DNA from: Echinarachnius parma
Taxonomy: Eukaryota > Echinodermata > Echinoidea > Clypeasteroida > Echinarachniidae
Direction: 5' to 3'
DNA length: 64,000 nt
Assembly (NCBI GenBank): GCA_037951105.1
Contig: JBAMJV010003376.1
Location: 124,001-188,000 of the forward strand
Shown: positions 1-64,000 of the stretch, one piece after another
Position numbering within the stretch: position 1 is the stretch's first letter
Layout: every line of letters begins with the position of its first letter
Translations under genes and position numbers: made by a program
The notes under the pieces: generated by a model
What the model saw: only the letters and a program-made list of their open reading frames with translations
Told to the model about the DNA's origin: nothing
Database searches by the model: none

Positions 1-1027
1 ATATTCATGCTGGTATGTTGGGAATGCAGATTTCAAAAGTCCACAGTTATGGTCTATATTGTATACATGATACTTCTGTAATTTCCTTACAACTATTATA
101 TTACTGTTGAAAAAGGCATACAAGGGTGGGGGGGGGGGGGGGGGGTGGATATGAGGAGGGGGAAGGGGGAATGGCTAGGAAGTTGCAGCCCCCCCTACCC
201 CAACAAGGATTTTGAAAATATACAATATTTGGGTAAAACTTCCACATTTTGGGGTAAAACCACAATTTCTGGCAAAATCATTCCCTTTTGTGCAATTCAA
301 GCTCCCTTGTCAAAATCAGCTCTTAAAAAAAAAAAAAAATTATAGTGAAATTAAGAAAAATATTATTTGAGAACTGTCCTTCATGTACTTCAGCTACTTG
401 TAGTCTTCCCTGGAAAAATCACCCATGCCTGTCTGATCCTGTCAATAACTTTGTGTATTTATGCAACCAATGAAACTGATATCATATACATCCGTGATCC
501 GTGAGCCCTTTTCAATGCATAGAAATGTTTATGATGATTGAGCATAACATTTATATTTATTGAAAACAAAACTATTATTGGAAGTACTTGGCATTCATCC
601 ATCTAGTATACAGACTTTGTACATTAATTTGTACTTTTTGAAAGTTCAAATTTGCATGGTTGTTCTATACAACATGTGTGTGGTAATAGAAATAATACAA
701 ACATAACATGTACAGTCCATGACGAGGTCCATAAAATCACACTGCTCAAACTCAAATATCTATTGTTGCAATTATGCGTTGCAGTGTGCCCTTGATAACT
801 GTTATGCATGAGCCTGCATGCTTAAAGCCTCAGCCTAAAGACCTGCCAACATGCCTACAAGCACACAATCATATACATGTATGCCTCAAAACATGCAAAA
901 TATCATAATTTATATGAGCCTAGCAGAATTTATCTGAGCCGTGTGGGTTAATTAAAATAAGAACGTTCTATGATCCCATCACACACATATCACAATCCCC
1001 TACAAATAAATTACAAACAAATATATT
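1..1027. other. Non-coding DNA with poly-G tract, A-run and duplicated segment
   Basis: Contains a poly-G run (128-145), an A-run at 326-340 of the kind left by a retroposed sequence, and a segment at about 768-858 (TGCAGTGTGCCCTTGATAAC) repeated diverged at about 1203-1345. No gene is supported. Confidence 0.5.
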
Positions 1028-1200
1028 ATTTATTTTTCTTGGGCTTCTTTTCAAGCTTGTCTGCATGAAAACAGACTCTAAATTTTTGTTTGCACCCTAT
1101 GCAAATTTATAGGGGCTCTTTTATGATTTTAGGGGGCTCTTTTTGGCATTTCAAGAGCTTATTCCCTCTGAGCCCCCGTGTATTTGTTTTCACTGAGGCA
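1028..1200 (+). mobile_element. GGGGCTCTTTT-type repeat element, copy 1
   Basis: A dispersed element built from iterations of GGGGCTCTTTT and TTTCAGGGGCT-like words with an end resembling GTGTATTTGTTTTCACTG. Related copies occur at 11177-11345, 17512-17690, 27330-27450, 42480-42750, 53340-53605 and 60900-61080, in both orientations. No coding capacity is visible, so it is non-autonomous. Confidence 0.6.
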
Positions 1201-1372
1201 TCTATATTATAGTTATTGTAATGCATTGCAGTGCGCCCTTGATAGCTGTTATGTATGCAATATGTTAAATGCATTCATGAGACTAAAGCCTCAGACTAGA
1301 GCCAGAGGCCGGGCTACATTACACGCCTACAAGCACCGCACACGTATCATACGCCTCCCTTCACACATGCAC

Positions 1373-1640
1373 TGTACATGACATCGGTTGACGTGTCTGA
1401 ATCAGTTTAAATGCAATCGTGTTATGCCCGGTTCACTAGCACTGCTGACAGTTCTGTCTTAGTTAAAGGCCCACAAGAGTTTTTGGAAGTATGTGAATAT
1501 TTTGTTGTCATACACAGTCTGTACATGACATCGGTTGACGTGTCGAATCAGTTTAAATGCAATCGTGTTATGCCCTGTTCACTGGCACTGCTGACAGTTC
1601 TGTCTTAAAGGTCCACAAGAGTTTTCGGAATGATGTGAAT
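1373..1640 (+). repeat. Tandem duplication, period ~147 bp
   Basis: Two near-identical units begin at the word GTACATGACATCGGTTGACG (1374 and 1521) and extend through ACAGTTCTGTCTTA and CCACAAGAGTTTT. Confidence 0.8.
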
Positions 1641-1740
1641 ATCATATGATGTGAATAAGAGTTTGAGAAATGTACACACTTTTCCAATAAGGCAGCTAAC
1701 ACTTCTGTTCAACTACAAGAGAAATATAATTCCTTATGCA

Positions 1741-2068
1741 GGGCTCCACACTTACCTTTTTTTTCCAGTGGCCCAGTTGGGCCAGTGAAATAATTTCTTC
1801 CCCTTTTCTAGTTGCCCTAAAGAAAAATTTACCGGCCAAAATTTTTATTTCATTCCGAGTAAAATTTTACTATTCAAAATATCACTCTTCCTGATCAGAC
1901 CTGTGATAAAAGATGAAGCATGATATGGAAGAAAACAAAATGTTTCTAATTTTGTCAAGTTAAAAATCTGCTTGCCAGATCGGGCCACCAAAATATGACT
2001 TTTATACATTTTTGTTGGCAAGAAGTGCAATTTCACTGGCCCCGGGCCAGCGGGCCAGTGTGGGTTAT
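1741..2068 (+). mobile_element. GGCCAGT-iterating element, copy 1
   Basis: About 330 bp with ends of the form GGGCTCCACACT and its approximate inverse. Words of the form TGGCCC-N-GGGCCAGTGAAAT recur near both ends and at internal positions (for example CAGATCGGGCCACCAAAATA). Other copies lie at about 3262-3566 (opposite orientation) and 31728-32062; fragments lie near 35148, 51470 and 63216. Short ORF peptides here (GPVGPV-type) are by-products of the motif. Confidence 0.7.
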
Positions 2069-2679
2069 GTGCCTTATGTGTAAATCTTGTCTAAGAGTAA
2101 GAAGCAAGAAAATTGCCAAGCAGATTGAGCTACCTAGAGGGTGATTCATTTTTTCTCTCTTTTGTTTCACGTTATTTGTTTGATGGTTCAAGTAAAATTG
2201 GAAAATTCATGGTTACACCCTTTTACTGTGGAAAATTGCATATAGATTATGTACTGGTATTGGATTATTGGGATTTCAGTAAATCTGCAAATACTTTGTA
2301 CACAGCCCACCCGCTCCCGTAGGCAAGGGGTTAATTACAAGTATTATGGAGGAGGAAATAAAACCATCTGCTTCAAGATCCATCTAAATCTGTGGGCAAT
2401 TATTGCTTCTTCAGAAGACACGTCTGAAGCAATTATCAGCGCTACTTAGAACGAGGAAGCGGGATTAAAAAGATGAATTATACCACACTTTGCAAGTTTA
2501 ATGCATTCTGTCGAAATATACAGACTCTATAGTATAATGACTGTTTTATATACTAGATAGTAGATACTGTAAATGCATAAATATGATAATATGAATGAAA
2601 ATTCCGTCCCATCTCATTCATCTGCTGGACAGACTCCTTTCCTAGTATGTATGTAAATTTGTGGAATTATGCTCCTTCT

Positions 2680-2866
2680 GGGTGGTATTGCATAAAAAGT
2701 TGCGATTAATCCCAAAGTTGCGATTAATTGCAGAGTTGCGATTAATCACTAGTCGGAAAAAATTAGATGAAATGTGCTAATCTGATTGGCTTAAAATGTG
2801 CGCATTTTAAAACTTGCAATAATCGCAACCTTGCGATTAATCGCAACTCTTTATGCAAGACCCCCC
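2680..2866. mobile_element. Small inverted-repeat element iterating GTTGCGATTAAT
   Basis: Ends are GGGTGGTATTGCATAAA and the inverse of GGGGGGTCTTGCATAAA. GTTGCGATTAAT occurs at 2699, 2717 and 2735 on one side, and its complement near 2815-2829 and 2834-2846 on the other. The neighbouring array unit at about 2400-2440 shows the uninterrupted flank. Confidence 0.65.
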
Positions 2867-3261
2867 AGAAGAAATGTCTGAAGCAATTATAATCACTGCT
2901 ACTTAGAGCAAGGAAACTGGATTAAAAGATATGTATTCACCCATACATTGCAAGTTTAATGAGCTCTGTCAGAATACAGACTATACATACAGTGACACTT
3001 TCATACTAGATGCTGTTCATGCGCATAATTGATGTGATATTGATCACAAATTTATATAGTCCATTGAGTCCAATCTCGTTTATTTGGCCATGTCTAGACC
3101 AGCACCTTTTCTACATGCTTCATGATACATAAAGCTGACATTGTTAGTGCTACTTGAAATGCAGAAACCAGGATTAAAAGATGAATTAAACCATACTTTT
3201 AAATTTTAATTATAATTATGTCACAGTACCAACTGTATGTAGAACTACATGTACAATAACG

Positions 3262-3566
3262 CAGGGCTCGACACTCACACTGGCCCGGGGCCAGTGAAAT
3301 TGCACTTCGGGCCAGCAAAAATGTATAAAAGTCATATTTTGGTGGCCCGATCGGGCCAGCAGATTTTTAACCTGAAATTGACAACATTTAAAAAATCATA
3401 GTTTTCTTCCATGTCACACTGCATTTATTATCACAGTTTTAATCAGGAAAGTGTGATATTTTGAATAGTAAAAAGTTTACTGATCAAATAATAATTATGG
3501 GCCAGTAAATTTTTCTTTTGGGCCACCAGAAAAGGGGAAGAAATTATTTCAAGGTAAGTGTGGAAC
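3262..3566 (-). mobile_element. GGCCAGT-iterating element, copy 2 (inverted)
   Basis: Begins GCAGGGCTCGACACTCACAC and ends GGTAAGTGTGGAACC. It carries GGTGGCCCGATCGGGCCAGC internally and aligns in reverse with the copies at 1741 and 31728. Confidence 0.7.
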
Positions 3567-3645
3567 CGTGAATGACAGTTACAAACAAGACGCTATAAAT
3601 CCACAAATATGATATGAAAGCAATATTTATCATTTATCAGGCCAT

Positions 3646-4192
3646 GGCGCCGTTGCAAAAAGAGATACAATCGATTGTAAGTTACAATTAATCTTAAAGG
3701 GATCTAGTAACTTTGTTGACATGTGCAAAAAGTGATGAATGGTTGATGCGATGTATATTGTTGTTATCTCATATGTCCACAGGGTATTGTGTGAAAATTT
3801 CAAGTCAAATGGACATTGTATGGCCAAGTAATGAGCAAAAACGCAAAGTGATATTCATTAACTCACTGCACTCACTTTGTACACAGAAGAAAAACTCGCC
3901 CGGAGTTTTTCTTATCTGAATACTTCAATCATACATATCTTTGTAACGAAAGGGAAATTTGAAAAACCGAAACCTGTCCTGTGATTTTATTGTTAATACG
4001 AATACAACAAGGTATATGGTAACCGCTAGAATTAGAATTTTATTTTGAGGATTTGGACAATGTTACTAAGTCCCTTTAAGTCAGAAAATTTGCGCGCTAT
4101 AACCAATCAGATTTGCGCATTTAGAACACGTGATCGGACTTACAATTAATTGTAACTTACAATCGATTGTATCTCTTTCTGTAACGGGGCCC
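3646..4192. mobile_element. GGGCCCCGTT-type MITE interrupted by a TTAA MITE
   Basis: Outer ends are GGCGCCGTTGCA and TGTAACGGGGCC, followed inward on both sides by AGAGATACAATCGATTGTAA and its inverse. It sits in an array unit whose empty version reads GGCCATGTCTAGACC (near 3085), implying a short (AT or CAT) target duplication. A second copy without the insertion is at about 22083-22220. The termini and short duplication are compatible with ISL2EU/IS4EU- or Harbinger-type elements; I cannot decide. Confidence 0.7.
3698..4075 (-). mobile_element. TTAA-flanked MITE, family A, copy 1 (nested)
   Basis: A 378-bp element with termini AGGGATCTAGTAAC and GTTACTAAGTCCCT, flanked on both sides by TTAA (3694-3697, 4076-4079). 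The TTAA target is that of piggyBac and Kolobok transposases. It is inserted within the outer MITE at 3646-4192. Other copies are at 9961, 26665, 49463, 54169 and 62675. Short ORFs inside it are not conserved between copies. Confidence 0.85.
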
Positions 4193-4687
4193 ATGTCTAG
4201 ACCAACACCTTTACTACATGCATCTAAATCTGTAGGGAATTATGTTTCGTCAGGATACATGAAGCAGTTATTGATATAGTGCTAAGTACTTGGAATGTAG
4301 AAACCAGCATTATGATTAATTACACTTATACAAAATAAACTAAACAAATAATTAATTAAACCACCCATGTACATTGTACTTTGGAAGTTTAATGATATGA
4401 GCTATATATGAGTTTAATGTGATATGTCAGAGTACAAACAATGACAGTTACATGATATTATGACACTAAATGCACAAATATGATATGAACATAACAGCCT
4501 GTGATCTTGTTTATTTAGCTATTTGGAGAATATCATGTTTCTAATACATGCATCAAAATCTGTGGGGGAATTATGCTGAATTTTTGAAAACAAGAATGAT
4601 GTTCAAAGCAATTACCAGTGCTACTTAGAATGAGGAAATATGATTAAAAGATGAATAATAACATACTTTTCAAGTTTAATGAGATAT

Positions 4688-7600
4688 GGGCAATTCCGTA
4701 TGAGAGAAGGCAAAAACACCACATCTCAAAGTTGAGCAATCTTCCCTAAATCAAACTGTTATCAATAGAGGAAAACTTGAATTTTAGGAAACTGAAAACC
4801 GTTTGTATATAGCTCGATTGGTTTTTCAAATATTTCTGCTTGAATTGAACAGAAATGTATGACCTTTTATTCATAAATCAGCTTCATTTTGTGAAAATAA
4901 AGTGAATTTTTTAATTCAATGACTGTTTCTGCTCATTTTCTCATATTTTCCATACGATGTTGTAACAAACACAAATTGTAAAGCATGGGCAGTAACTTCA
5001 TTGCATATTTTTTTGAGAAATTTTTTAAATCTATGCACATTTGATCGTAATTCCGTTACGATAAAACAATTTAAGTTTTTCTCAATATCTTATTACTTGT
5101 TCTTTAGTCATGTCATTGTGAATTCTCTTCCTTCACCATAGTCCTAAGAACTTCCAACATAATTTTCTGAAATAATGTCACTACTTTTTCCAAAAATGGC
5201 GTAACAGTATTAGTAATTCCGTTACGTAACGGAATTACATGCACATGGTTTTTAAGGTATTGAATGATATTGCTGAAAATAACATTTTTTCTTGTTCTGA
5301 ATGTAGAAATACCCTTTAAATAGCATGAACTGTAGCCATGTAGACAATAAGTCATTATACATACAGTGCATGTACTGTACAATGTTACTTTATCTGACTC
5401 ATTACCTCACATGCTTCATATTGCATCAATGGTGATTTAACTAAATTGATACACGATAGATAATTTCTCTAATTTCTCCACGAACATAATAGAGATGATA
5501 ATGTTCTATCATTAAATTAGTTTCCAGCAAGACCCACTTGACTGAAATTATGAAGATGCAGCAGATTCATGTTTGTACTTTAGAAAGGGAAAAACGAAAA
5601 CAATAACAACAATTTAAAAATATCCAGTAATTAGTATGACACTGGTTCTACATTTATTTTCTCACATTAATTTACATTGATGTATTTTAAGATATAAATC
5701 ATACCTTCAACTTTCAAGGAGATTTAATATTAATAATTTTGTATGTAGATTTGAATATCATTGATCAGTTAAGGGCTCATAACTCACCATTAATTATGTA
5801 AATTTGTATTAAACTGAAGCATATAAAATCAAACATAAATACAGAATAGGCTTCAAGATATTCAAAACTATACATAATACAGGCTAAGATATGTTTTATT
5901 CATTATCATTAAGTCAGAATTCATTGAGTGTTCAGTGTGCTTCTGTATGCAGATCAAAGAAGATGTACAAAGTATTTGCATTTTCAAATAGGAATTCCTA
6001 AAGGTGTCTTTCATTTTTTGCAATTTGATTTTTATATTTTATATGCCAACTTTTTGTATTTGGATCATACATGTTTATATCCGCATGTATGTATTTCATG
6101 AAATGAATGAAAACGCATTCTAAATTGATTTGAGAGTAAATTAAGATCACTTTAGGATGAATTTTTAAAAGAATAATTTTAGAATATAACAAGAGTTTAT
6201 ATAACAAATCTCGATTTGTTTGTAATTCTGTTACGCACACACATAGATTCAGGACTTGTTCTGGTCCTTATGTAAGAGTTTAACAATGCATACATTGTTT
6301 AACAATGCATACAAATTAACAATGCATACAAATTCTTTACTATAGACTGTACGCAGAAAAATGTAACCAAGAAATTGCATTTTCATGGGTGGATTCATGG
6401 GTGGATTTCACAGGCGTAATTCCGTTACAGTGACATTCGTTTGTCTTAAGGTAATTTCATAGGTTAAAATAGATCATTTCTGGAAAAAAGATGTACCAAA
6501 TTCAAGTTTGTAACTTAAATGATAAGTTTTTATTACCAATGAAGAATTTTTTTTGGTAGCTTTTGCAGAAAATCATTACAAAGTTAGTGTTGAATAAAAG
6601 ACCCCTTTCCGTTATGATTGTATTTTGGTCTCCTGACGCTACAGTGTTTAGATTTGTACCTCTAGTACCCCTGCCAGTTATTAAAGTTGTAAAAACTGTG
6701 GAAGTGAAAGGAATTTTAAATATGATTAAGAAAACAGAGCTAAAAATCACTTAGATGTCATTCTGTAACAGTGGAATTGCCCATTCACAATGCATTTCCA
6801 TTCACACAGATTTCCAATATTCAGGAAGTTTACGAGGCTTTATAGCATTGAAAGTTGAATTATTTGACCTGTTTGTGATTTTAAATTGTTTAAATGTTTC
6901 TTGATATTGATGATGTGCAGTTCTTTAGCATGTCACATAATGTAGGTACTTTTTTTTTTTTTTTTACTTTGGGTTTTTTCACAATTTAACCATTTTTCTT
7001 GAAGTAAAGGAAAAATTTAAAAATGTTGCTATTTTTTACTTCAAATATGGTTATTATTGTCAAATTATTGATTTTTGAAAAGTATTGAAGCTAAAATGTG
7101 AATTTGTTGTTGTTCATGTACCGATTTGTGGAAAAGTTGATCCCACTGCTCAAGTTGTGTAATTCCGTTACACACTTTAGTGGACATAGTTTCTAGGATT
7201 TTTCTTTCATTTAATTGATGCAATCCTTTTTAATTTCTTGCCTACTAATATGAAGCTGAAAATAAACCGAAATAAAGCTGGAGTTTAGCAATATTTTTTT
7301 CATATTTCACTCTTATTTGTATTTTGGCCATATTTTCATTTGTTTTACACATAACAAGTTCAAAAATTGCTTTACAGATATGTCAAATTATGGTTTATAT
7401 TCAAGTGCTAGATAGCCTTGATGTTTGCATTAGCATGTAAGAAAAGTTGAGTGCAAAATAATTGAGTTTTCCTTGTAACTTTCAGAGATGTAATTCCGTT
7501 ACAAATTTGTGTAATTCCGTTACAGTGGTCTTTTTTCAAAAAAGTGAATTTGTGAACTTATCATTGTGTTGTTTATGCACGTACTTGTTCCAAAATGAAG

Positions 7601-7913
7601 TTGACATTATCAAGATAGAAAAAATACATAAAATCAGTTTCAAAGTGTCTTATATTTCAGAGAAACTCAACGCAAACTTGTAGCAAAAAAAAAACTCCAT
7701 TCTCCGGTAATTCCGTTACGGTCACACATATTGGTCTAGTGTGCAACAACACATGGAAGATATAAAACCATTTCCCTATCATGTTGTAGCCTGGTTACCC
7801 GTGCAACTTATATAAGTATCAAAATTTACTTAAGTCATGAGAATATTGCGCAGGGAATGAAATAATGAGCAAAAAACGTCTCTGAATGTAATTCCGTTAT
7901 GGTGGAATTGCCC
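4688..7913. mobile_element. Large (3.2 kb) non-autonomous DNA element iterating GTAATTCCGTTAC
   Basis: Begins GGGCAATTCC and ends GGAATTGCCC, flanked by a 4-bp ATAT duplication (4684-4687, 7914-7917). Neighbouring array units (near 4431) show the empty site. About ten copies of the near-palindrome GTAATTCCGTTAC, eight of them exact, lie at 5046, 5213, 5226 (inverted), 6222, 6416, 7159, 7490, 7511, 7707 and 7888. An additional end-like sequence, GTAACAGTGGAATTGCCCA, at 6765-6783 suggests internal rearrangement. The interior is AT-rich with no credible ORF: the longest ORF, 89 aa on the minus strand at 5113-5382, spans the motifs and has no recognisable domain. The superfamily is unknown. Confidence 0.8.
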
Positions 7914-8342: not shown

Positions 8343-8371
8343 TACTGTAAATGCATAATATATGAGTTTAA

Positions 8372-9287: not shown

Positions 9288-9540
9288 CTACACTAACTAT
9301 TTCTTGTACTGGTCCGTTCGGGCAAGTAAAATCAAGCATTTTGTAATTTTACTTGCCCCATTGTGAAATTCACTTGCCCCCTTACTTCTATATGAGATTT
9401 CAATGTATAAAATAACAAAGTTCTCTCGTAGTATAATAATTATTTAGTTGCCCAATCAGGCAGGCAAACTAGGAATTTTATGAAATTTTACTTGCCCGAT
9501 ACCAATTTTTACTTGCCCCGGGCAAGTGTTCGTGAGTATT
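9288..9540 (+). mobile_element. GGCAAGT-iterating element, copy 1
   Basis: Layout resembles the GGCCAGT family but with the motif changed to ACTTGCCC-N-GGGCAAGT, present at both ends and internally. Related copies are at 18430-18706 and 28255-28497. Confidence 0.65.
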
Positions 9541-9960
9541 GTACTGACAAAAACATAATTTCAGAGTGGTATTCCACCTATTTCCTTGATTCTTATGATC
9601 ATGCTGTCCTGCTGCAATCTGGAGTTATTTGTACAGTAGTCTATAGACTACAACATTTGTCATTCATTCCCTAACAAAATGGACCTGAAAAGAGATTTGA
9701 CAACTTTTTTCTTGTATAAAGCCACATACGTTATTTACAATAAATATCCAGGAGCGATCATTTAGACTTTGACTTGTGGAATTCAATGCAAGGTGTAAAA
9801 TAAATGTTTGTTTCCATTAAAAAAATCTAGTTTCTGTATTAAATGCAATTGATAGGTTATTTATAGCCCATTCAGGGCGGGCACACATGATGATGTTCCA
9901 AACAGTTTAAAAACTAGTTTCTATATTAAATGTGAATGATTATTAATTATAGCCCATTAA
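9541..9960. repeat. AT-rich DNA with short tandem duplication (CTAGTTTCT...TATAGCCCATT)
   Basis: The words CTAGTTTCTGTATTAAATG and TATTTATAGCCCATTCA recur at about 9827-9880 and 9914-9958, and again after the MITE at about 10325-10360, giving an empty-site reference for the MITE at 9961. No gene is seen. Confidence 0.55.
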
Positions 9961-10324
9961 AGGGATCTAGTATTAACATTGTCTAAATCCTGGAAACTTA
10001 CTTGGAACTCTAGCGGTTCTCTTATACATTATTGTATTTGTATTAGAAGCATGGGACAGGTTTCAGTTTTTCCAATTTCTCTTTCGTTAAAAAGGTATTT
10101 ACGATTGAAGTGTTCCGATGTTAAACTATCCACTGGATAGTTGTAACTGTGTACAAAGTCAGTGCAATGAGTGAGTGAATATCACTTTGCATTTTTGCTC
10201 ATTACTCTGCCATATCAGTACTTAACGTCCATTTAACTTATAAATTTTCACACAATACCCAGTGACATTGAATCAACCACTCATCACTTTTGCACATGTA
10301 TGTCAACAAAGTTACTAGATCCCT
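9961..10324 (+). mobile_element. TTAA-flanked MITE, family A, copy 2
   Basis: Complete copy between TTAA at 9957-9960 and 10325-10328, in the orientation with the CTCTAGCGGTTCT segment near the left end. Confidence 0.85.
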
Positions 10325-10328
10325 TTAA

Positions 10329-14019: not shown

Positions 14020-15579
14020 TTAAGTATAAAAATGTTATTTGTTGGTGTGCAACCATGCCATTTATCTGCTGTCATTATAAGCATGCCTTCATGATCATGA
14101 AGGCTTGCAAGCCCTCATAACCCAAACTCATAAATGGCTTATGTGCACATATAAAATACAGCGTATCCCCTCACTCACATAATATGTGCAGATATTATTG
14201 GTTTGTCATTAATAATTAAACTGATCATGTAATTATTTTACTGAAATTTGTGATGTGTTGACACTGTGACCATCCCAATTATGATCCATCATAAGCCGGG
14301 CTTCATGTTTGCTTGTTTGCCCTCATAACTCAAGCTCATTTTAATAGCTTCAGTGCGGAAATGATATACATTATATCTTCTCTCCACATGCTATACGTGT
14401 ATGTGGAGCATTGGTTGGCAGGGCTTTTTGTTATGAGTTAAACTGATCCCATATTTTTTTTAACTGAAAATTGTCGTGCAAACATTCAAATGGACCGCTA
14501 TTTCAGAATTCAAGAGCACTACATGATTGTTTGTTTGCCAAAACAATACACCATAATAATGTTTTTGTGCACATATGATGTACAGCTCATCCCTTCACTT
14601 CAATTAGATCTGACTCTGTGATTATCTTGTACTGAAATATTTGCTGTGTTGATACTGTGAGTGTGACCATCCAAATTATGACCCACCATAAGCCTGCTGG
14701 CCTCATGATTACTTACAGTGTGCCCTCATAACTCAAACTCATAATCACTTCTGTGCACAGATGATTTATAATATATGCATCCCCTAACTCATATGTATGC
14801 ATGCTACACATGTTGAGCATCTGCAACGTTTGTGATTAAACCGATCTTCAGGATCCTGTAATTATTTTACTGAAAATATGTGGTGTGGACCTTAGAGTTT
14901 AAATGTGAAATACTATGTGGGTGCTTTACTTCTTTAATAAGCATGGCTTCATGATTGCTCAAGTGCCTCGTATCTCAAGCTCATAAATATGCTGCTATGT
15001 CAGTATTTCAGTGTGCAACCATGTCGGTTACTATCAATCGGAACCCTGGGTTTTGGTTAGCTTGCATGCCTTCTGTGCACACATTTAAACCCCAAGAAGC
15101 ATAGAATTGAGAAAATACAATATAATGGATTTTCATTATTTGAGTTACATGTAAACTTGAATTATTCCACTGAAATTTGGTATGTCAACAGTCAAATGGA
15201 CTTCTACCTACATTGTATGTCAGTCTTTGACCAATGTTCCAAATTTCCAATTATCATTCATCAGATACCTAGCTATTATCCATTATATGATTGCTTGTTT
15301 GCTTTCATAATGGCTTCCATGCCCAGAAGAAATGCTGTATTACACACATGATCATGTAGTATTTGACTATTAGGCATGCATGGTTTGTCATTAAGAATTC
15401 AACTGACCCTGTAATTGATTTTACTTAAATTGTGCATTATTATTATTATGGATGGTCAAATAGACTGGATTGTAGTTGTACTTGTAGGACAATTCAATTT
15501 ATCATCCATAAGAAGCCTATAGGTACGTGATTGCTTATTTGCTCTCATAATTATCTTTAGTAGCTAATGAAGGCTTCTA

Positions 15580-15635
15580 CCGTAAAACTCCGTGTATAAG
15601 ACGCACTCGTGTATAAGACGCACCCCCAACTTTCT

Positions 15636-15676
<41 letters not shown>

Positions 15677-16039
15677 TTTTTTTTTTTTTTTTAGAATATT
15701 TTTTTTTCATGAATATTCATATATTCATGAGGTAGCAATGCTCATTAAATATGCAAAATACTAAATTCATTAATAACTTTTTTGTTGAGAAAAATGTATA
15801 ACCACTGTTTAGAAAATTGAATATTAAATGAGTGCTGCTACTCATGAATATCTGAATATTCAATTAGTAGCAGTGTTACTGCTTAAAAACTTGCATTTTG
15901 CTTTGCTAACCACTATAATTTATGTAGGACAAAGGTATATTTTGATAAATGTTCCCCCTTATATCAAGCTCTTGTCATGCCCTAGACCAGTTTAATATGC
16001 ATTAAACATGACTACCGGGTGTCGCCAAAAAAAAAATCT

Positions 16040-16088
<49 letters not shown>

Positions 16089-16172
16089 GCTGTACCTGTG
16101 TATAAGACGCACCCCCCACTTTCCGAATTTTCCGACGGAAAAAAAGTGCGTCTTATACACGGAGTTTTACGG
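15580..16172. mobile_element. MITE with CCGTAAAACTCC ends iterating GTGTATAAGACGCAC
   Basis: 593 bp flanked by TA, with terminal inverted repeats CCGTAAAACTCCGTGTATAA continuing GACGCAC. The motif occurs twice at the left end, and at the right end as one direct copy (16098) plus the terminal inverted copy. Long poly-A and poly-T runs lie at 15640-15692 and 16039-16087. The minus-strand ORF over the poly-T is not coding. Confidence 0.85.
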
Positions 16173-16380
16173 TATATATGCCCAGATGAAATACTGTACA
16201 TACTAGATATCCTTAGCTTGTCCTGTAACATTGAGCATGCATGGTTCGTCATTAAGAATTTAACTGAACCGGTAATTGTTTGATTGAAATGTGCATTTTG
16301 GACATTGGACAATCTAATTGACTGCTATTTTAATGTGTTACCATAGTGATTAACATCCATAACTAGCCTAGCTACATGAT

Positions 16381-18429: not shown

Positions 18430-18706
18430 CTCAAGCCTCCACGCTAACTTTTTTCTCTGCTAGCCCGGTAGGGCAAATAAGATCATTAATGTTCAAATTT
18501 TACTTGCCCAAACAGAAAAGTTACTAGCCCGCTTAGGTGTAGATTAGATTTACACATGTAAGGAATACCATTCTACTTGCGCAGTTGAAGAGAAATTTAA
18601 GTTGCCCAATCGGGCAAGCATACTAGACCATTTATGAAATTTTACTTGCCCGACACCAATTTTTACTTGCCACGGGCAAGCAGGCATGTGCTAGCCTTGC
18701 ATAATT
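18430..18706 (+). mobile_element. GGCAAGT-iterating element, copy 2
   Basis: Begins AAGCCTCCACGCTAAC and ends with ACTTGCCACGGGCAAGCAGG. Several ACTTGCCC words and GCCCAATCGGGCAAGC lie internally. Confidence 0.65.
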
Positions 18707-22557: not shown

Positions 22558-22849
22558 CATACCTGCCAACCAGTCCGATTTTGTCGTATTCAGTCCGATT
22601 TTTTACTCAAAAAAGGGTACAAAATCGGACGAGTACGATTTTTTAAGTCTGGAAAAAAAAGAAAAAAAAATACACACATACATATTCAGTGTGGTCATAT
22701 GTTGAAAAATAAGGCTAAGATAGCACAAGAGAGCATCTAGAACCCTAGAGCTGGACCCCGGCTGCAAAGGACTTCGTGCTTCGCGCTCGTGATGCGCGCT
22801 TCGCTCACATGAGAGTAAGATTTTTCATTTTCAAATGTTGGCAGGTATG
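22558..22849. mobile_element. MITE with CATACCTGCCAAC ends iterating AGTCCGATTTT
   Basis: 292 bp bounded by CATACCTGCCAAC and GTTGGCAGGTATG, flanked by an apparent 6-bp duplication CATACT (22552-22557, 22850-22855). AGTCCGATTTT occurs twice near the left end and as CAAAATCGGAC in inverse. Confidence 0.75.
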
Positions 22850-22859
22850 CATACTGTGG

Positions 22860-31727: not shown

Positions 31728-32062
31728 AGGGCTCCACACTCACCTTTTTAGTCAGTGGCCCGGTCGGGCCAGTGAAATAGATTCTTCCCATATTCCGGTG
31801 GCCCAAAAGAAAATTTACTGGGCCCAAAATTGTATTTTATGAGTAAGCTTTTTACTATTCAAAATATCACTCTTCCCTGATCAAACCTGTGATTACGGAT
31901 GAAGCACGACATAAAAGAAAACAAGATTTTTAAATGTTGTCAATGTGGGGTTGAAAATCTGCTTGCCCGATCGGGCCACCAAAATATGACTTTTATACAT
32001 TTCGCTGGCCCCAAGTGTAATTTCACTGGCCCCGGGCCTGCGGGCCAGTGCGAGTGTCGAGC
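31728..32062 (+). mobile_element. GGCCAGT-iterating element, copy 3
   Basis: Begins CAGGGCTCCACACTCACC and ends GGGCCAGTGCGAGTGTCGAG. This is the best preserved copy for judging the terminal inverted repeat GCTC(C/G)ACACTC. Confidence 0.7.
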
Positions 32063-34541
32063 GCATATATGCAGTGTGCATTAAATAGGCCCCATGTTTA
32101 TGAATTTCACGCATATGATAAATGACCATGTACTGTGTGTGGGGGATATCCATTTGCAAGCCATAGGTCAGTTACCAAGTGTACAGTCATTAAAGACCAA
32201 TCACAGGTAAAACTTATCTCTTATGACCATTTATCAATCTTATGACCATTAAACTACGCTCATATATCACTTTTTTTGACCGGTTTTAATGAGAAAGTCC
32301 AAATGCATTTTGATGGGAGCCGTAAACAAAAGATGGGCTCACATAAATATTTTGCACCAATTATAGTGTCCAATCGTAAAAGGAAATATTAGTTGTAAAT
32401 TGTATCATCAGATTTTGATTCTGTGTCTAATCATATTGAACGTGCATAATAAATATGTTTTCTTAAGAGTTAATGTAACTTTCAGATGGCTCGCGTCCTT
32501 GTGAGTCCTACATTATGCACTCTTCTCTTGAACTACAAAGTGAAAAAAGGACACTTAACTCTACAAGATAATTGCGCAGGTTTGAAGTGTACCCCAAATT
32601 AAATAGCGTGTCTCCTTCCCTCCCCGCCCCTCCCCCCATCCCTCCCCCAAATCGGTACACTTACTGATTTGTGCGAGTAATACGCAGACCTTCTTATCCA
32701 AGTGATAATGTAACTTTCAGATGGCACATTTGTCCTTCAGAGCCCTACATTATGCCCTTTGCTCTTTCTATTAAAATGAAAAAGGACACTTAACTCTACA
32801 CTTATGATTGATGCAAGACCTGTTGAAGAATGATACGCCTTTATGCACGCTTCATAATAGAGAAATTCTTGTGTGGGCTTCTTTACGAACGATGCGCATC
32901 AAACGTCCACTAGTATGTGGGCCGGGCAACGATGACCGCACGTTTTTAGCTGGTGCCTTTGCGTTAGTCTGTTTCTCTTGTTCATTACCAGAGTCTGGAT
33001 TCAGCAAAACATATAATTTGTTCTAATTTAAAAAGCGAATCAAAGCTTGCACAAAATTTGTAGAATATTAACCATTCCCCGAGTTCTTATGTTTGATTCT
33101 TTGAGAAGCCCAATTTTTTTTATTTATGTATTTCTGGTCGGTTTCTTCTTTGTCTGAATTTATAGAACATTGTCAAATACAGATATTTTTTATATCGAGT
33201 TCTGTATCATTTCATTCATCAAGTTAAGCAAATGTTTAATACAAAAATGACCATAGGCCTAAGACAAATAATGATATTATAATGACAAATTAATGATATT
33301 ATTGTTGAATTAAATGCATGTACGTTTTTATTTCCCTAAAAATCAAAAGTTTTTTCTAGGCTCTGTATACTTTGATGCATACATAACATTTTCCCCTGAA
33401 GCAGTCTATGTGAAATAAATCCCCTGATTGGAAATGTTGTAGAATATTATAAAATACCAACATTTTGAAGATGTAGTACTTACATGTACCCTTTCGCCTC
33501 TTAAGTTACTAAAAATGTTACGAGGATGTCCCCAGGCCTAAGAAAATGAATGACTAAGATGTATTACAAACTATGTTTACATTTGTATTTTTTCAAAAGT
33601 CTATGTTGGAATGAATGACATAGATGTATTACCACTGTGAATACATTCTGCAACTTTTCTTAAGGCGATGTTTGAATGAATGACATGGATGTTATTTTCC
33701 TAAAGTCTATGTTTTTCCAGCTGTTATCATGATATTTAATGTTTCCTGAAGCAGACTGAATTCAAATTATGAGTTCTCATTAAAATTACATTGAGGACAA
33801 AATTAATCATAGGGAATATTTTGTCTCTACTTTTTGGAGTTTTTGATGACATTGGAAGACATTTTTATAGAGAATATAATTATACATCCCATTTTTTGTG
33901 AAATTGGAGGACAAAATTTGTAGAGAAGAATATGATTGACATATTTTTCTTTCCTCCCAAAATTGTCTCTGACCCTGTCTTGGTAGCATCTGTGTTTATG
34001 TGTGTTGGTGTTGACTGAAATTGATAAAAGGATTTTAACTTGCCACTTGGTCTATACCAATGCAGGAATTAATTTTTAATTTTAGGGGGCTACTTTTCCA
34101 ATCTGATGGATGTTCAGAAAATGTTCACATAGTACCATATGGTAATTTTAAGGGCTACCTACTGATTTCAGCCCCCATTTATTTCCTACCCTGGTATATC
34201 TATACCCATGTTGTCTGCTTGCAAAATCAGAACTTAATCATATGTCATGAAATTTAAACTTTTTGAATGTTTGAAAAGAAAGATGACAATATTTCTTTAT
34301 TTGAGCTACACCTTTGTTAATACCATATTTTTTCATTTCATATAATTTATTTTGACAAGTACTATTCGTTAAGAATATGAAGATTTTTGTTATCTTTTGC
34401 TTCACAAACAACTCACAATGTATTTAAAGATTTGTATGAAAATATAACAATTCAAAATATGCAATTAAAACAAATAGGGCTTTGTTTGAAAATGTGCAAT
34501 AGCACCCTCTATATTACAGAATCGCACAACCTCAATCTTAA
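32063..34541. other. Non-coding DNA with a ~230-bp spaced duplication
   Basis: TAATGTAACTTTCAGATGGC through AAGGACACTTAACTCTACA occurs at about 32471-32570 and 32708-32800. The ORF at 32808-33026 has no domain and no clear splice context. A GGGGGCTACTTTTCC fragment lies near 34085. Confidence 0.45.
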
Positions 34542-49838: not shown

Positions 49839-49971
49839 TTAAAGTAATTTTTGGAAAATGAGTCCATATCTTATGTAGATGATACAACTAATAATGAATG
49901 TATAGCATTTATAGTGTACGAGTCAAATTTTGCACTAGTGAAAATTAAAGTCCTTCCCGTGCCAATTTTTG

Positions 49972-53339: not shown

Positions 53340-53605
53340 TCCAGGGAAAAAAATACACGGGGGCGGCGGGCGAATTCGCCCCCGAAATGCACAAAAGAGC
53401 CCCCGAAAAAGTTTTTGTTTTTTGTTTTTTGTATTGGATCGTGATCGAATGCCGATCAGATGATCACTTACAGCATTAGAGCTTAATAGTAGCCCCTGAA
53501 ATTAAAAAAAGAGCCCCGGAAATTTGTAGCCCCGAGATAATAAAAGTTGGAAAAGTAGCCCCCGAAAAGGAGCCCCCGAAATAAAAATATTAATTTTTTC
53601 CCTGG
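53340..53605 (-). mobile_element. GGGGCTCTTTT-type element, long copy (inverted)
   Basis: Bounded by CCAGGGAAAAAAATACACGG and ATTAATTTTTTCCCTGG, so both ends carry an inverted CCAGGGAAAAAA-like terminus. It contains GAATTCGCCCCCGAAATGCA and repeated GAGCCCC. Confidence 0.7.
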
Positions 53606-53845: not shown

Positions 53846-54168
53846 TTAGATCTCTTGGAAGCTCCCACTCTGACTCCCTGAGATATGCATCTCTTCTTGC
53901 ATTGTCATGAGTTGGCTAATAATTAAATGCTGAGTTTATTTCAGGGGAGTGTGTCACTAACACCAAAATCAATTTTAGCATCAATTTTATGTGATGATCG
54001 TCCTATTGAATTGATCCTTAAATAGATTTAAGTGTTTACAGAACCCCCCCCCCCCCCCTCCCCTTTGTGCAGACATTAACTGAAACATATTTACCCAGTA
54101 TACACATTTTTTCTGCTACATAGAGGCTCATGATTCACCCAATGAAATTGTTTTGATTTCGATATTAA
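53846..54168. other. AT-rich DNA with poly-C tract
   Basis: A poly-C run lies at 54044-54058. No gene or element is recognised. Confidence 0.4.
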
Positions 54169-54765
54169 AGGGACTTAGTAACATTGTCCAAATCCTCAAA
54201 ATCCATTTGGAATTCTAGCGGTTTCCTCATACCGTAGAACACCATCGTCAAGCACCCCCAAGCACCTATACGCATCTTGCTTTTAAAGACGTTTCCATGA
54301 GATTCACCTCCATTATTATCCTCATGAATATTCCTCACCATTATTTGCATTCTTGATTAAAGTTTCCCGTTTGGACAGAGAGCGGGCGCTCTTTAAAAGC
54401 AAGATGCATATTGGTGCTTGGGGGTGCTTGACGATGGTGTTCTACGGTACCTTGTTGTATTTGTATTAACAATAAAATCATATGAAAGGTTTCGGTTTTT
54501 CAAATTTCCCTTTCGTTAAAAAGATATTTACGATTGAAGTGTTCAGATGTTAAATAATCCAACGGATCGCGAAAATGGTGTACAAAGTGAGTGCAATGAG
54601 TTTGTGAACATCACTTTGCATTTTTGCTCATTACTCTGCCATATAACGTCCATTTGACTTGAAATTTTCACACAATACCCTGTGGACATATCAGATAACA
54701 ATATACATTGTATCAACCATTCATCACTTTTTGCACGGTTTTGTCAACAAAGTTACTAGATCCCT
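54169..54765 (+). mobile_element. TTAA MITE, family A, copy 5, interrupted
   Basis: Left TTAA at 54165-54168; the right flank is TTCA. The element is split by a 216-bp MITE at 54232-54447 within the word CCTCATACCTTGTTG. Confidence 0.8.
54232..54447. mobile_element. MITE with CCGTAGAACACC ends (nested)
   Basis: 216 bp with inverted ends CCGTAGAACACCATCGTCAA extending to about 57 bp, flanked by TA. Other copies of the host element give the empty site. Confidence 0.85.
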
Positions 54766-55319
54766 TTCAATGTTTTTTTCAGACTTCTCACTCTCAGTAG
54801 ACCCTATCCTAAGTGTATATGGGACCGGTCCAGGGCAATCCTGCGGTCCAGAACGGGTTAATGTGAGTGTCTAGACACGCACGCACACACCAAAAATGCC
54901 AGAGCAGTGCTGAGATTTGTACATTGTTACCCACATTTTTTAATGTGACATAAATAGCAAACACATGCTTTCTTCCTGTCCGGAGCATTCCAAAGTTTAT
55001 CTATAGATCGGCTTCAGAATGTTTCCCAGAAAAGAAAAAAGAATGTACTCTGCGCATATATATTTTGCGATTTTGGGATGCCTGTGGTTTTGTATAAGTA
55101 TTTCTGTCAGAATTTGGTATGTCAAGAATATAATGTGCCCCCGTCCTGCATGTTGCCTTCTTTCCTATGTTAACCTGTTTCCAACTTTATTTTGCAATCC
55201 TTGTAGATGTGATACAGAACCCACTAGATTCCCGTAGGCATTGGGTCGACTTTTTGCCATCAGTTTGTCATAGCATCGTAATTCTTGAAATAACATGAAT
55301 GTTTACTCCAGTCGGTACT

Positions 55320-55620: not shown

Positions 55621-55629
55621 TTATCACTC

Positions 55630-56902: not shown

Positions 56903-58631
56903 GGGCAGGTCCAAGCTATTTGACTTGTGACGTACGGGACATTCACAGCTTTCAATTGAATATTATTCAAAGGAAGGAGCTATGATCTGGAATCTTTTTG
57001 GTGCTTTGGAAAGCTACTTGTAGTCCCTTCCTAAAATTCCAAAAAAATATTCAAAACGCTCGTTAAAATTTAATTATGCTAATAAATATGCAGCGTGACG
57101 TACGGGACCAGAGAAATTATGACTTTAACAACAAAATGTGTATTATGAAAACTCTCTGAATCTACATGGCAGATAACAACTTATTCCTGATATATGCATT
57201 TAGTAACCATTAATATACGCACTGCAAAAAAAAAAAAAAATTGTGACCTTTTATCCCATGATAATTAATGAAAGAAAATAGGTATGCGCGTGACGTACGG
57301 GACATGTGACGTACGGGACATTTTTCTCTCATGTTTTATTTGTCATTTTCCTGCTTTTATTTTTAAATCTTTGGGTCCATTTTGCAATATATTTGTTCTT
57401 ATTGTATTTATTCAATATTGTGATGATTTAAAACTCAAAAACAGCTTCCACAATACAATATAATAAGACTTTAACAAATTGAAGCTCTGAAATCCGATAA
57501 TTTGCATTAATTATGCTAATAACTAATTAAGAATTAATATTTTATTTGGCTTCAAAAGATGTGGGATACATCTATCTGATGTAAATTACTTTCAATATTG
57601 ACAAAAAAGATTTGAATATGAGAAAATTAAACAGAATCATCATAAATTTGGCAACTTACATGAAATCCTACACATGGGACTATTAGAAGAAAAACTAAAT
57701 ATATTTTGTGCCTTTTAGCACTTTCTTGCAGTTTTTGAACCTGTTTGGAAGGTCTTGGTGTACTGAACCAATGTAATACTATATTTCCTTCATTGACATG
57801 CAGTTTCCCTACTCAAATTGACTGTCTAGTATTTTAGATAATTATTTAAAGGTAATTATGAGGTATTTCAAATTTCCCCCTCCAGACACCTTTTCATCAG
57901 TATGTAGCTATAACGCGAAGTATGATGTGGTAATTATGTAATTACTTTTAGAGGTAACTCCTAAAGGTAAGACCTATTTATTCTGAAATTTGTAATACTA
58001 TCTAAGCAAGAATTATTATGATAATCAGTGGTAAAACACAAACAAATAATTTTCACCTGGCTTGCCATTGCTTTAACACTGAAAATGTCCCGTACGTCAC
58101 ACTTTTGTCCCGTACGTCACATGTCTTAATTAGCTAATAAAATAAAAACGAAAAATGCTGTTTTCATAAACTTAGCTAGCCAGTCAAGAGTATGATAAAT
58201 TAGAACTTCACAAAATATGAAAGAAAAAAATTAAGTGTTTCATACTGAAATATTAAAAAAAGGTGTTCATTTTTGTGACGTACGGGACATTGCAGTTTGG
58301 ACACGCCCTAAATAGCATAATTAATTAATTTTGACACTTAAAAATTTGGTCAACTATTGCTAGTGATTAGTTTTACTAGTCCCCATATATGAAATTAAAG
58401 CTTGATTGATAAAATAAAAATTAAAAATAGAAATACAATGTCCCGTACGTCACGCTAATATTTGAAATATGCAAATTAGATGCTCACTACTCGTTAAATA
58501 TGCATATTATGCAAATTTCTGTACTAAAAATCTGAACTTCAGACTTTTAGCTTTAAAATGATACCAAATTTGTAAAGCTAAAATGAAGATGAATTTTCAC
58601 CATCAAGGGGGACATTAGCTTGGACCTGCCC
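56903..58631. mobile_element. Non-autonomous DNA element (1.7 kb) iterating GTGACGTACGGGACA
   Basis: Ends GGGCAGGTCCAAGCTA and the perfect inverse, flanked by TTTT (56899-56902, 58632-58635). Seven exact copies and one single-mismatch copy of GTGACGTACGGGACA occur: + at 56927, 57095 (final base changed), 57290, 57306 and 58275; inverted at 58086, 58106 and 58439. Spacing is irregular. There is no ORF of note; the interior is AT-rich. Confidence 0.85.
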
Positions 58632-60535: not shown

Positions 60536-60544
60536 TTGATGGGT

Positions 60545-60899: not shown

Positions 60900-61080
60900 T
60901 TTTTGGGGGGGGGGGGGGGCTGCTTTTCAAGCTCGCCTGCATGAAAATTAGCAAGCAATGTTTGTTTTGCATTGAACTCTATGCAATTTACTGAGGGCTC
61001 TTTTATGATTTTGGGGGGGCTCTTTTGGGCATTTCAGGGGCTAAATCGCCCTAGCCCTGTATATTTTTTTTCCCACTGGT
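60900..61080 (+). mobile_element. GGGGCTCTTTT-type element
   Basis: Contains AAGCTCGCCTGCATGAAAAT, GAGGGCTCTTTTATGATTTT and a TGTATATTTTTTTTCCCACT end. A poly-G run lies at 60905-60919. Confidence 0.65.
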
Positions 61081-61109
61081 TCATACTAGGATCATTGGCT
61101 GCATTTTGA

Positions 61110-61735
61110 TAGAATTGACTAGCTCAGAATCAACATCACAGTAATCATAACCGACCTTAACCTACGAAAGGGAAAAGAAAGGGGAGTCTGGACTTGGCAC
61201 ACTAACACCTGCATATACGTACAAGAATTAAAAAGGTGAATAATCCTCCCCCCCCCCAATAAAAAATCAGATATAATAAAAAGTTAATTAGTAAATAAAT
61301 TTAAACAAATTATTTTTAAACTCATGATTTAACCAGTTTCCTTCAAGTTTCTGAAAATCCCCATAGACTTTGTACATATCCTACCCGGTTCCCGTAGTCA
61401 AGGGGTTATTAGTACATATTCCATTTAGTTTTGTGTGAAACCACCCCCATTCTGCATGGCAGTAATCATAACCGACCTTAACCTCCGAAATAAAAAGAAA
61501 AAAGATGAGTCTGGACTAGGCACGCACACGAGGCACGCTTCCACCCACGCACACACACACACACGTGCGAAAACCCGTGATTGTACATTTATATTAGTGT
61601 GAATCCACCCTTACACTGCATCGCAGTAATCATAACCGACCTTAACCTCTGAAAGAAAAAGAAAAAAGATGAGTCTGGACTAGGCACGCACACTAGGCAC
61701 GCTTCCACCCACGCACACACGTGCCAACATTCCAT
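61110..61735. repeat. Tandem array (3 units) with CAGTAATCATAACCGACC
   Basis: The word occurs near 61139, 61461 and 61625, each followed by TTAACCT, an A/G-rich run and GAGTCTGGACTAGGCACGC. A (CA)n run lies at 61549-61563. Confidence 0.8.
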
Positions 61736-61739
61736 TACC

Positions 61740-62583
61740 CCCCTGTGGCGTCCCACCCCATCCAGAAAAAAAAAAGTTGTACTTTGCAGAAAAAAAAGAA
61801 AAAGAAAAAAGTACTATCCAGAAAAAGTAGGAAATAATGTATAATCTAGAAAAGGGAAAAGAACATAAGAGTTATGAAGGGGGAGGATAGTTAACCCGTT
61901 GCATACGGGAACCTGGTGAGTCCTGTTGTAACTCTGGGGATTGAACATTTTAGTAGGGAACGTGTTATCTAGAAGATGTTTTAAAAGGGAAATTAAATAC
62001 ACATGTAGAACCACCCAGGCTCCAGCAAAAAAGAAGAAAAAAAAAAACCCACGAATTTGTATCATCTCAAAAAAAAAAAACTTTTTGTTTACATTGTCTG
62101 CAGACTACAGATAGATACATTTTGATTTGATCTGCAGCATTTTTGAACTCTCTACGGCAGTTTGATATTGAAAAGTTAGTTTGTATGCATTTACAATTAT
62201 GTATTTGTTCATAATTTGATTTCTGTAACACATTTGTGCTAGAGCTATAGCTCAGAAGGTTCGTGTGTAAGCACAAAAGTGAAAAAGCTGAAAGCAAAAT
62301 ACTTAGATTTTTATTTTTGACTTGTGACAAATGATATGTATTTGACGTCTGAATTTATTGTTTATGTTTGTTAGAAGTGGAACATTCTTATTCTTATTGA
62401 TGAGTATTGATTCTTTGCTTCACATTCCAATCTCATTAGAAATGCTTTATTCTCCTTCTTGTTGAATCCAAGAATTCGTATCTAGAGTCTAGAAGAAACC
62501 ATGTTTCTGATTTTATAGTCATGTTTGTTCGTCTTAGTAGATCCATCTTATTTTATGATCCAATTCTATGAAAAGGAAATGTT
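61740..62583. other. A-rich and AT-rich non-coding DNA
   Basis: A-runs at 61765-61800 and 62038-62080. TATAGCTCAGAAGGTTCG at 62246 is faintly tRNA-like but has no cloverleaf. Confidence 0.4.
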
Positions 62584-62674
62584 GTGCCAGGTGCATTGTT
62601 CATAACATTTTCCAAGCATTGGTCCATTTGGGTGAGTAGGTTTCAAAGCATTCAAAACAGAGCTATCCGGTTAA
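62584..62674 (+). pseudogene. Fragment of a non-LTR retrotransposon reverse transcriptase (C-terminal region)
   Basis: The frame reads WVSRFQSIQNRAIRL, resembling the LQxIQNRAIRLI segment found near the end of many LINE ORF2 proteins. It is cut by insertion of a TTAA MITE directly after CGG. A second in-frame-like relic, SLERLHWLSTLQ then stop (63481-63519), resembles the LKELHWLPV segment that follows it in those proteins. Confidence 0.4.
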
Positions 62675-63051
62675 AGGGATTTAGTAACATTGTCCAAAAC
62701 CTAAAAACTTACTTGGAACTCAGTGGTTCTCTCATACCTTGTCATATTCATATTAACAATAAAAGCGCGGGACAGGTTTTGGTTTTTCAAATTTCCATTT
62801 TGTTCAAAAGATATTAACGATTGAAAGTGTTCAGACGTTAAACTGTCTACGGGATAATGCCGTGTACAAAGCCAGTGCAATGAGTTAGCGAATATCACTT
62901 TGCATTTTTGCTCATTTCTCGGCCACAAAACATCCAATTTAACGTGAAATTTTCCCACATTACTTTGTGGACATATCAGATCACAGCAATACACATTTTA
63001 TTAATCACTCATCACTTTTTTTACACTTGTCAACAAAGTTACTAGATCCCT
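62675..63051 (+). mobile_element. TTAA-flanked MITE, family A, copy 6
   Basis: TTAA at 62671-62674 and 63052-63055; ends AGGGATTTAGTAACATTGTC and GTTACTAGATCCCT. Confidence 0.85.
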
Positions 63052-64000
63052 TTAACAGGCTACATGTATGAGCAAATATTTACCCCAGAGTCAGAAATAG
63101 AAAAGTACTGTTGATGTATAAACCATTTAGTTCACTACGGCACATGACTGTTTTCTTAGTATCGCACTATGAACTTGACAATGAGTTACTACATGTGTAT
63201 ATGATATGTTCTTAGTCAGGCCTCCGCACTGTATTGTTTTTGGTCCGTTGCCCAGTCGGGCCAGTAAAATGCTTTCCTTTGAACTTTTTGTTGTTGAGGG
63301 GGGGGGGGGGGACAGAAACAGACATCTAACTACGGTCCCTCCCCCCCCCCCCCCCCCCCCCCCCCCCACAAAAACACACACCAAAAAAAACAGAAACACA
63401 TTTTATTTGCAGACTATCAACTTTGTAGAAATCTCACTTCTTCTGTTTTTTCAATTTTTTAAAATCAACTTGAAGTTGAATCTCTAGAAAGATTGCACTG
63501 GTTATCTACCCTGCAGTAAATGTGATTAGAGCCCTCTTGAGGCAGACTTTAGACAGTGAAGTGGCTGTACTAATAATTGGCAGTGGGGACGCAGTAACAT
63601 GTACTGCATTGTACTGCTGATCATGGAGAAGATGGGTTTGCCATGACATTATATTTTTTTCCCGCAAGTGAAAGTGACAGTAGAAATTTTGCAATTTTTC
63701 AAGCACTTTGTTAACCCTTTGTCAGGTACATATAAACTTGAAATTGTTACTTACTATATTTTGTAGGCTTCCGGATCTCCAGTTTCAGCCTTTCAGGCCA
63801 GCCATGCAAATCTTGAAATCTTGTTTTCATTTTCACACTGGGTCACAAAGTAGAAAATTGTGTTTTGAGCATCGCCATATTAACTCTCTCTCCCCTCGAC
63901 AATTTCAATATTTACCCTCGTTCTAAGTTTCGAACTAGAACGTTAAAGTTGTTTTAGGAGGTATCATCGTTTAAGTAGATTTTTTACTGCACATGCCAGA
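63052..64000. other. Non-coding DNA with GGCCAGT fragment and G/C homopolymers
   Basis: A partial GGCCAGT element (about 63216-63275), a poly-G run at 63299-63311, a poly-C run at 63342-63367 and the LINE relic at 63481-63519. The ORFs overlapping the homopolymers are not genes. Confidence 0.5.

Follow-up and report, generated by a model that had tools for sequence, protein, structure and literature searches.

Why should short words recur several times inside elements that otherwise look different, along one stretch of Echinarachnius parma DNA? The stretch in question covers 64,000 bp (contig C3375, positions 124001-188000; hereafter the window); it is AT-rich, has a single open frame of at least 150 amino acids, gave no tRNA and no Rfam match when scanned, and we read it as non-coding animal DNA with many transposons. 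A first-pass annotation had described at least nine families of unrelated small transposons in it, each with short inverted termini and its own near-palindromic motif iterated in both orientations, and had proposed a common mechanism for this, either the spreading of transposase-binding sites or the copying of terminal sequence inward. Our analysis indicates that the iterated words are quite probably arrays of binding sites for each family's transposase, placed at or just inside the ends of non-autonomous DNA transposons. In one group of related families, marked by GGGCA termini, the spacing of these sites is kept although the word differs from family to family.

The iteration itself is real, and motif copies were found at the places where they had been annotated. 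In the window, 190 different 11-mers had at least three copies inside 3.5 kb; in 20 local shuffles of the sequence the number averaged 0.75 and never exceeded 2. When motif number was compared with 100-300 shuffles for each of 18 element/motif pairs, 17 pairs lay above every shuffle and the remaining one (H2) only equalled the shuffle maximum. Words were also counted in the 1.2-Gb genome (14,790 contigs), with results given as forward/reverse strand and the pattern read backwards as control. Eight of the nine motifs were far above the reversed controls, the ninth, ACTTGCCC, being tested inside the window. The words of families A, B, C and D were counted as given: GTAATTCCGTTAC (3397/3403 vs 10/9 reversed), GTGACGTACGGGACA (890/876 vs 2/4), GTGTATTAACCGC (3901/3971 vs 46/27) and GTGTATAAGACGCAC (1538/1617 vs 0/0). 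Families E and F were counted as longer words, GTTGCGATTAATCNCAA (326/291 vs 0/0) and GCTGGCCCGATCGGGCCA (196/241 vs 0/0), and G and H as pairs of AGTCCGATTTT (69/73 vs 0/0) and of GGGGCTCTTTT (334/306 vs 0/0). Near-palindromy did not survive: nine of ten words (A3 included) did not exceed letter-permuted versions of themselves in palindromy, so that letter content alone accounts for it, and only the B word was marginal (44 of 1000 permutations, uncorrected). Nor did iteration in both orientations hold for family H, where none of five copies showed it.

Five related non-autonomous families share GGGCA termini and a 4-bp target-site duplication (TSD), and carry four different words of 13-15 bp: A1 and A2 (GTAATTCCGTTAC), A3 (GTCCTTCCGTTAC), A4 (GTAACGTTACTAACC) and B (GTGACGTACGGGACA). 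Their termini read GGGCAATTCC or GGGCAGGTCC, with a single changed base in one A2 copy and some B ends, and thus run GG ... CC, that is 5'-RR ... YY-3'. The A-type end occurs at 1100/1075 places genome-wide (0/0 reversed), the A3 word at 4471/4464 (23/21) and the A4 word at 850/828 (1/1); a further pattern was found at 132/136 places (0/0), nearly all of which were A4-type termini among the matches listed. The two TSD copies were identical in 31 of 31 tabulated elements and varied in sequence, it being understood that A4 was selected by a scan demanding equal flanks, the remaining families by word or terminus, and that the table omits L038 (a B copy with an insert and unmatched flanks), L057 (whose far end lies outside the fetched DNA) and one-ended loci. 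Exact copies of only one of the four words were present in 30 of these 31 elements, the exception being L037, a B copy that harbours a nested A4. The repeated motif lies near both ends, except in L073 (no) and in L074 and L077 (partly). Kinship between A3 and B is visible over 91 bp of end 2, which are 67% identical (expect value 1.7e-6; the reversed control gave one match, at 0.005) and include an identical run of 16 bp.

What these families have in common above all is a site map. At end 1, sites start at 14, 195, 391 and 412 in A1, at 14, 192, 392 and 412 in A2, at 14, 193, 390 and 404 in A3, and at 25, 193, 388 and 404 in B; at end 2, they start at 360, 526 and 539 in A1, at 360, 515, 531 and 548 in A2, at 360, 524 and 547 in A3 (the last with 2 mismatches), and at 179, 343, 512 and 532 in B. 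The terminus is separated from the outermost site by about 10 to 25 bp. Centres at end 1 fall at about 20, 199 and 396, the last of these being followed, 14-21 bp further inward, by a second site (about 412), and those at end 2 at about 366 and 530-550. When the sites of B were first compared with the A families by random placement, equally good placements arose in 8 of 200,000 trials at end 1 and 4,325 of 200,000 at end 2; against a map template taken from the other families, none of 200,000 was as good as B at both ends, and two were at end 1 alone. A4 was discovered by a scan of the fetched DNA that made no use of the map, in which GGGC termini with equal 4-bp flanks were taken and repeated 11-mers counted. 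The A4 found in this way, nested within L037 (1208-3825, TSD ATAG), has eight exact sites, at 13, 192, 378 and 393 from end 1 and with centres 371, 536, 553 and 585 from end 2. It fits the map derived from the other families better than any of 200,000 random placements at both ends (end 1 alone, 1; end 2 alone, 718).

The map can also be followed copy by copy. Allowing up to 2 mismatches and tolerances of 13 bp and 17 bp, all four end-1 slots were filled in 8/9 A1, 4/5 A2, 8/8 A3, 3/4 A3-mini-type, 1/1 A4 and 3/4 B copies, and all three end-2 slots in 7/9, 5/5, 8/8, 0/4, 1/1 and 3/4, respectively; in the 771-782-bp minis the lone end-2 match is an end-1 site viewed from the other side. Between families, and within A2 and A3, word columns are moreover better conserved than their surroundings. 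Between A1 and A2 they were identical at 51/52 positions of end 1 (295/561 outside) and 34/39 of end 2 (271/521 outside), and between full A3 and A3-mini at 52/52 (296/364 outside). Within families they were less diverged in A2 (5 copies; 24 of 10,000 random block sets equally conserved) and A3 (8 copies; 42 of 10,000). Similarity of L069 to A4 was detectable at 1-35, 192-229 and 380-410 only, which are the site positions.

Three short relatives of A3 (L064, L065 and L067; 771-782 bp; TSDs ATTA, TAAA and AGTT) are 90-96% identical to one another. They share bases 1-416 with full A3, base 416 being the final base of site 4, and L064 and L067 share also the last 26 bp, the end-2 tip; every other BLAST match falls on the inner end-block copy of full A3. 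These minis have no end-2 sites, yet similar copies stand at separate places, each with its own TSD; the block of four sites, together with the end-2 tip, would seem to suffice for movement. A relative, L056 (1585 bp), has about 820 additional bases after position 141 and 3 sites. Separately, L067 contains at 30, 548 and 1159 a GGTCCGTTAGCTCAGTCGGCAGAGC-like word, which looks like the A box of a short interspersed element derived from tRNA.

Arrays of transposase-binding sites are a known kind of structure, and they are well supported here because the map is kept across families, word columns are conserved (in A2, in A3 and between families) and the A3 minis keep the exact end-1 block. On this reading, a transposase encoded elsewhere would occupy several sites, bring the two ends together and cut; loss of sites would immobilise a copy, so that mobile copies retain them; and transposase specificity would change together with all sites, leaving related families with the same map and different words. 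We infer that the bound protein would be the transposase, that the sites would be needed for movement, and that the map would serve assembly of the end complex. A rival proposal, that words spread by inward copying of terminal sequence through template switching or gap repair during transposition, would not require binding, and such copying is seen in places: part of the A3 end block recurs further inside the element (repeat of about 600 bp), where the site pairs 14/615, 193/794 and 390/992 share flanks, A1 has an internal copy of its end near 1132, L068 switches partner near site 2 and the similarity between A3 and A3-mini stops at site 4. Elsewhere, however, site flanks are unrelated (mean 20-bp flank identity 0.24-0.32), and in six elements, where 166 pairs of sites are separated by more than 40 bp, a 20-bp flank identity of 60% was reached by just 4 pairs, including the three from A3. 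As most sites share the word alone, inward copying is not their general source; it predicts neither fixed spacing across families with different words nor the lower word divergence in A2 and A3, and we regard it as an unlikely explanation.

It would also be conceivable that a host protein such as a repressor or a chromatin component recognises the words, and that the steps of about 165-200 bp reflect nucleosome spacing. Several inter-site steps do measure 164-198 bp, and no transposase is known for these elements; but the change of word from one related family to the next suits a protein specific to the element better than one of the host, and the outermost site lies very near the terminus, which makes this proposal improbable. 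Chance or low complexity, whereby word clusters would be expected in AT-rich or simple-repeat DNA, has almost nothing left to commend it outside family H, whose signal is weak and which consists in part of G and T runs. Observed counts were about 100 to 840 times the reversed control wherever that control was nonzero, site positions recurred in independent copies and shuffles failed to reproduce the arrays, which refutes chance for A, B, C, D, E and G and leaves H as the weakest case.

Several observations nevertheless weigh against transposase-binding arrays. Word conservation was not significant in A1 (9 copies), where 2259 of 10,000 random block sets were equally conserved. End 2 of B alone fitted the template less well (5,460 of 200,000 random placements as good), and the map was kept in only four of six A4 copies: among five further A4 ends L068, L070 and L072 conform, whereas L069 (exact sites at 13 and 380 only) and L071 (13, 309 and 324) break it. 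Common descent could in addition explain part of the shared map. L073, of 341 bp, has both GGGCAATTCC termini and ATTT on each side but no repeated word beyond the termini, and therefore the array may be dispensable for some elements of the group; in L074 and L077 it is only partial. Caution is also called for by piggyBac and piggyBat, in which, according to PMC11707139, some subterminal sites inhibit movement. Finally, when copies of A1, A2, A4 and B were scanned in six frames against Pfam, no transposase and no other family was detected, and the autonomous partners (same motif next to a transposase) that the first-pass annotation had proposed to look for were not found. The long B copies L037 and L039 were rejected as autonomous elements, since their extra length lies at different places and represents inserts (in L037 the nested A4 makes up part of it), and L038 was rejected because it carries a reverse-transcriptase-like frame. 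Two A2 open frames gave sub-threshold Pfam matches only. Open frames of about 105 amino acids (L037, 4743 reverse, in A4) and about 129 amino acids (L016, 1115 reverse, in A2), with no Pfam match above the cut-off, are perhaps captured host sequence.

Some elements appear to be mosaics. L074 and L077 are 99.7% identical and perhaps represent one event; their interior resembles that of the mini from just past mini site 4 onward (identity 70% across 268 columns and 69% across 223), and their end-1 block differs from the mini's, with CGGTAACTC(G/A)CGTTA at 171 and 359. L068 is 93% identical to L072 up to 231 and 94% over 374-427, and 86.5% identical to L069 from 195, which points to a switch of partner near site 2. 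These patterns are suggestive rather than proof. A speculative extension, which we consider rather doubtful, is that end arrays are cassettes on a fixed map, so that a family would swap its 'key' word by acquiring the complete end-1 block of another family, not by mutating site after site, with exchanges falling at word copies; the steps of about 165-200 bp might then also reflect a nucleosome-length spacing used by the end complex. Pointers in this direction are that the similarity between full A3 and A3-mini runs from the terminus as far as site 4 and is lost beyond it, that L074 and A3-mini have a common interior with different end-1 blocks and words, and that L068 changes partner.

The remaining families of the window (Table 1) show that 'same layout, other word' recurs in several groups. 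C and D have common CCGTA termini and a 17-bp tandem, with a word that differs at both repeats; E and E' have a common skeleton and different words; F and I align over about 200 bp, with site steps of 10, 33 and 21 in F and 10, 34, 21 and 7 in I. In the core TNGCC(C/A), base 2 is G in 20 of 24 F sites (three copies; the others T, one CGGCCA in F1 uncounted) and T in 26 of 30 I sites (four copies; the others A). F arrays have 6-7 sites and I arrays 4-6, all above every shuffle. The five window copies of H have 1-3 sites each, in a single orientation per copy, and form the weakest family. The label 'many unrelated' families therefore had to be given up, as C/D, E/E' and F/I align and A and B have termini, TSD length and site map in common, and 'small' is hardly apt for A1 (3226 bp) and B (1729 bp). 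A single mechanism common to different superfamilies was not shown either; similar function would suffice. By eye, F and I window copies have CAGGGCTC-like termini and no clean TSD. hAT elements have an 8-bp TSD and CAGGG-type termini. A TA target-site duplication would be expected of a Tc1/mariner type; the three window copies of C and D have TA at both borders, which without an empty site is inseparable from the terminus.

Table 1. Elements with iterated words in the window (window coordinates).
Element	Position	Description
A1	4688..7913	3226 bp; termini GGGCAATTCC; TSD ATAT
A1 sites	starts 5047, 5213, 5226 reverse, 6222, 6416, 7159, 7490, 7511, 7707, 7888	10 sites of GTAATTCCGTTAC, up to 1 mismatch
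B	56903..58631	1729 bp; termini GGGCAGGTCC; TSD TTTT
B sites	starts 56927, 57095, 57290, 57306, 58086 reverse, 58106 reverse, 58275, 58439 reverse	8 sites of GTGACGTACGGGACA
C1	8187..8347	short; TACCGTA termini; 4 sites of GTGTATTAACCGC, two as 17-bp tandem
C2	59758..59925	second C copy; 4 sites, up to 1 mismatch
D	15579..16175	4 sites of GTGTATAAGACGCAC; C-like 17-bp tandem layout, different word
E	2676..2873	6 sites of GTTGCGATTAAT, up to 1 mismatch
E'	3646..4192	end skeleton as in E; 4 sites, words of TTACAATTAATTGTAA type
F1	1741..2075	TGGCCC array
F2	3262..3560	TGGCCC array
F3	31729..32075	TGGCCC array
I	9300..9550	CTTGCCC array; aligns with F, equal site steps, core position 2 differs
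I2	18455..18690	second CTTGCCC copy
G	22560..22850	4 sites of AGTCCGATTTT, up to 1 mismatch
H1	1030..1190	sites of GGGGCTCTTTT; other window copies tested: 11180-11360, 42490-42760, 53355-53605, 60905-61080

Other features were noted in passing. The E' interior (3644-4193) belongs to a high-copy repeat, with 57 BLAST matches in about 310 kb of fetched DNA (overlapping loci included) and relatives at 9957-10328, 26698-27043, 49459-49849, 54165-54767 and 62671-63055. Nested in an E' relative is a further TACCGTA-ended element (54225-54455) in which the word AAGCACC is repeated and the 60-bp arms are 97% complementary. The H word occurs in tandem arrays of 3-4 copies with a unit of about 16-21 bp (G000:C731:55474-55551, C691:61681-61741, C258:127878-127949), which look as if expanded by slippage. 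A large near-perfect palindrome of about 750 bp spans 29499-30254, with nested inverted arms of 203, 59 and 50 nt that are 93-96% complementary. Tandem repeats of about 2 copies each lie at 20242-20680 (unit 188 bp), 23504-24065 (244 bp), 47111-47747 (241 bp) and 61422-61720 (164 bp). A long open frame (40408-41391) whose product is rich in N, T, P and L had no Pfam match and is probably an exon.

The A and B elements probably work like the subterminal arrays of Herves and Sleeping Beauty. In Sleeping Beauty the inner and outer sites of an end lie about 165 bp apart. Its repeated motifs near the ends are bound by the transposase, and its inverted-repeat/direct-repeat structure resembles the A and B elements in having unequal ends with an outer and an inner site at each, the need for all sites in movement being a Sleeping Beauty feature (PMC7827188); that element differs in its TA target and in having two sites per end plus a half site, whereas here there are at least four at end 1, and in the A families none within 350 bp of end 2. 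Herves, a hAT element for which Ac, Tol2 and Tag1 are cited alongside (PMC3143072), likewise has short motifs repeated near both ends, asymmetric ends and words differing between elements, the motifs being bound by its transposase. Unlike in Herves, where the motifs lie within about 100 bp of the ends, the sites of 13-15 bp are spread here over about 420-580 bp per end, with about 165-200 bp from step to step, and several related families keep one map under different words. With a TSD of 4 bp, they are not assigned to hAT. Subterminal motifs are repeated also in piggyBac and piggyBat, where some may restrict movement (PMC11707139), but the piggyBac target is TTAA (PMC2872659 and PMC9587614), whereas the 4-bp TSDs here are varied and TTAA was found in 0 of 31. 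By the definition given in PMC9587614, this last result also led us to reject Kolobok membership for A and B, although their 5'-RR ... YY-3' termini would fit it. With KolobokP, as portrayed there, they have in common termini of the 5'-RR/YY-3' form, a TSD length of 3-5 bp and independently mobile end blocks a few hundred bp long; KolobokP has two long terminal direct repeats, whereas in A and B the site maps of ends 1 and 2 differ and short inverted termini alone were seen, without a dedicated test for terminal direct repeats, A3 having an inner end-1 copy. Coral CMITEs offer a parallel in that non-autonomous families of one group differ in their terminal inverted repeats and keep a common internal feature; in PMC2872659, however, it is the internal sequence itself that is conserved, whereas here spacing is kept, and words and intervening sequence differ. 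Because no transposase was found in the scanned copies, we leave the A and B families without a named superfamily.

As far as our literature searches show, a map conserved beneath a changing word is new: no paper describing these families was found by title or abstract start, and the string gggcaattcc returned no transposon paper by title among the matches listed. It is an open problem how the specificity of a transposase can shift in step with that of all its scattered binding sites. This one genome holds several related families with the same map, different words and hundreds to thousands of word copies, and its mini-elements are natural deletion maps, so that the effects of site number, spacing and word change become testable. 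The shared map, in turn, is a route to further families without knowing their word, and groups elements that look unrelated.

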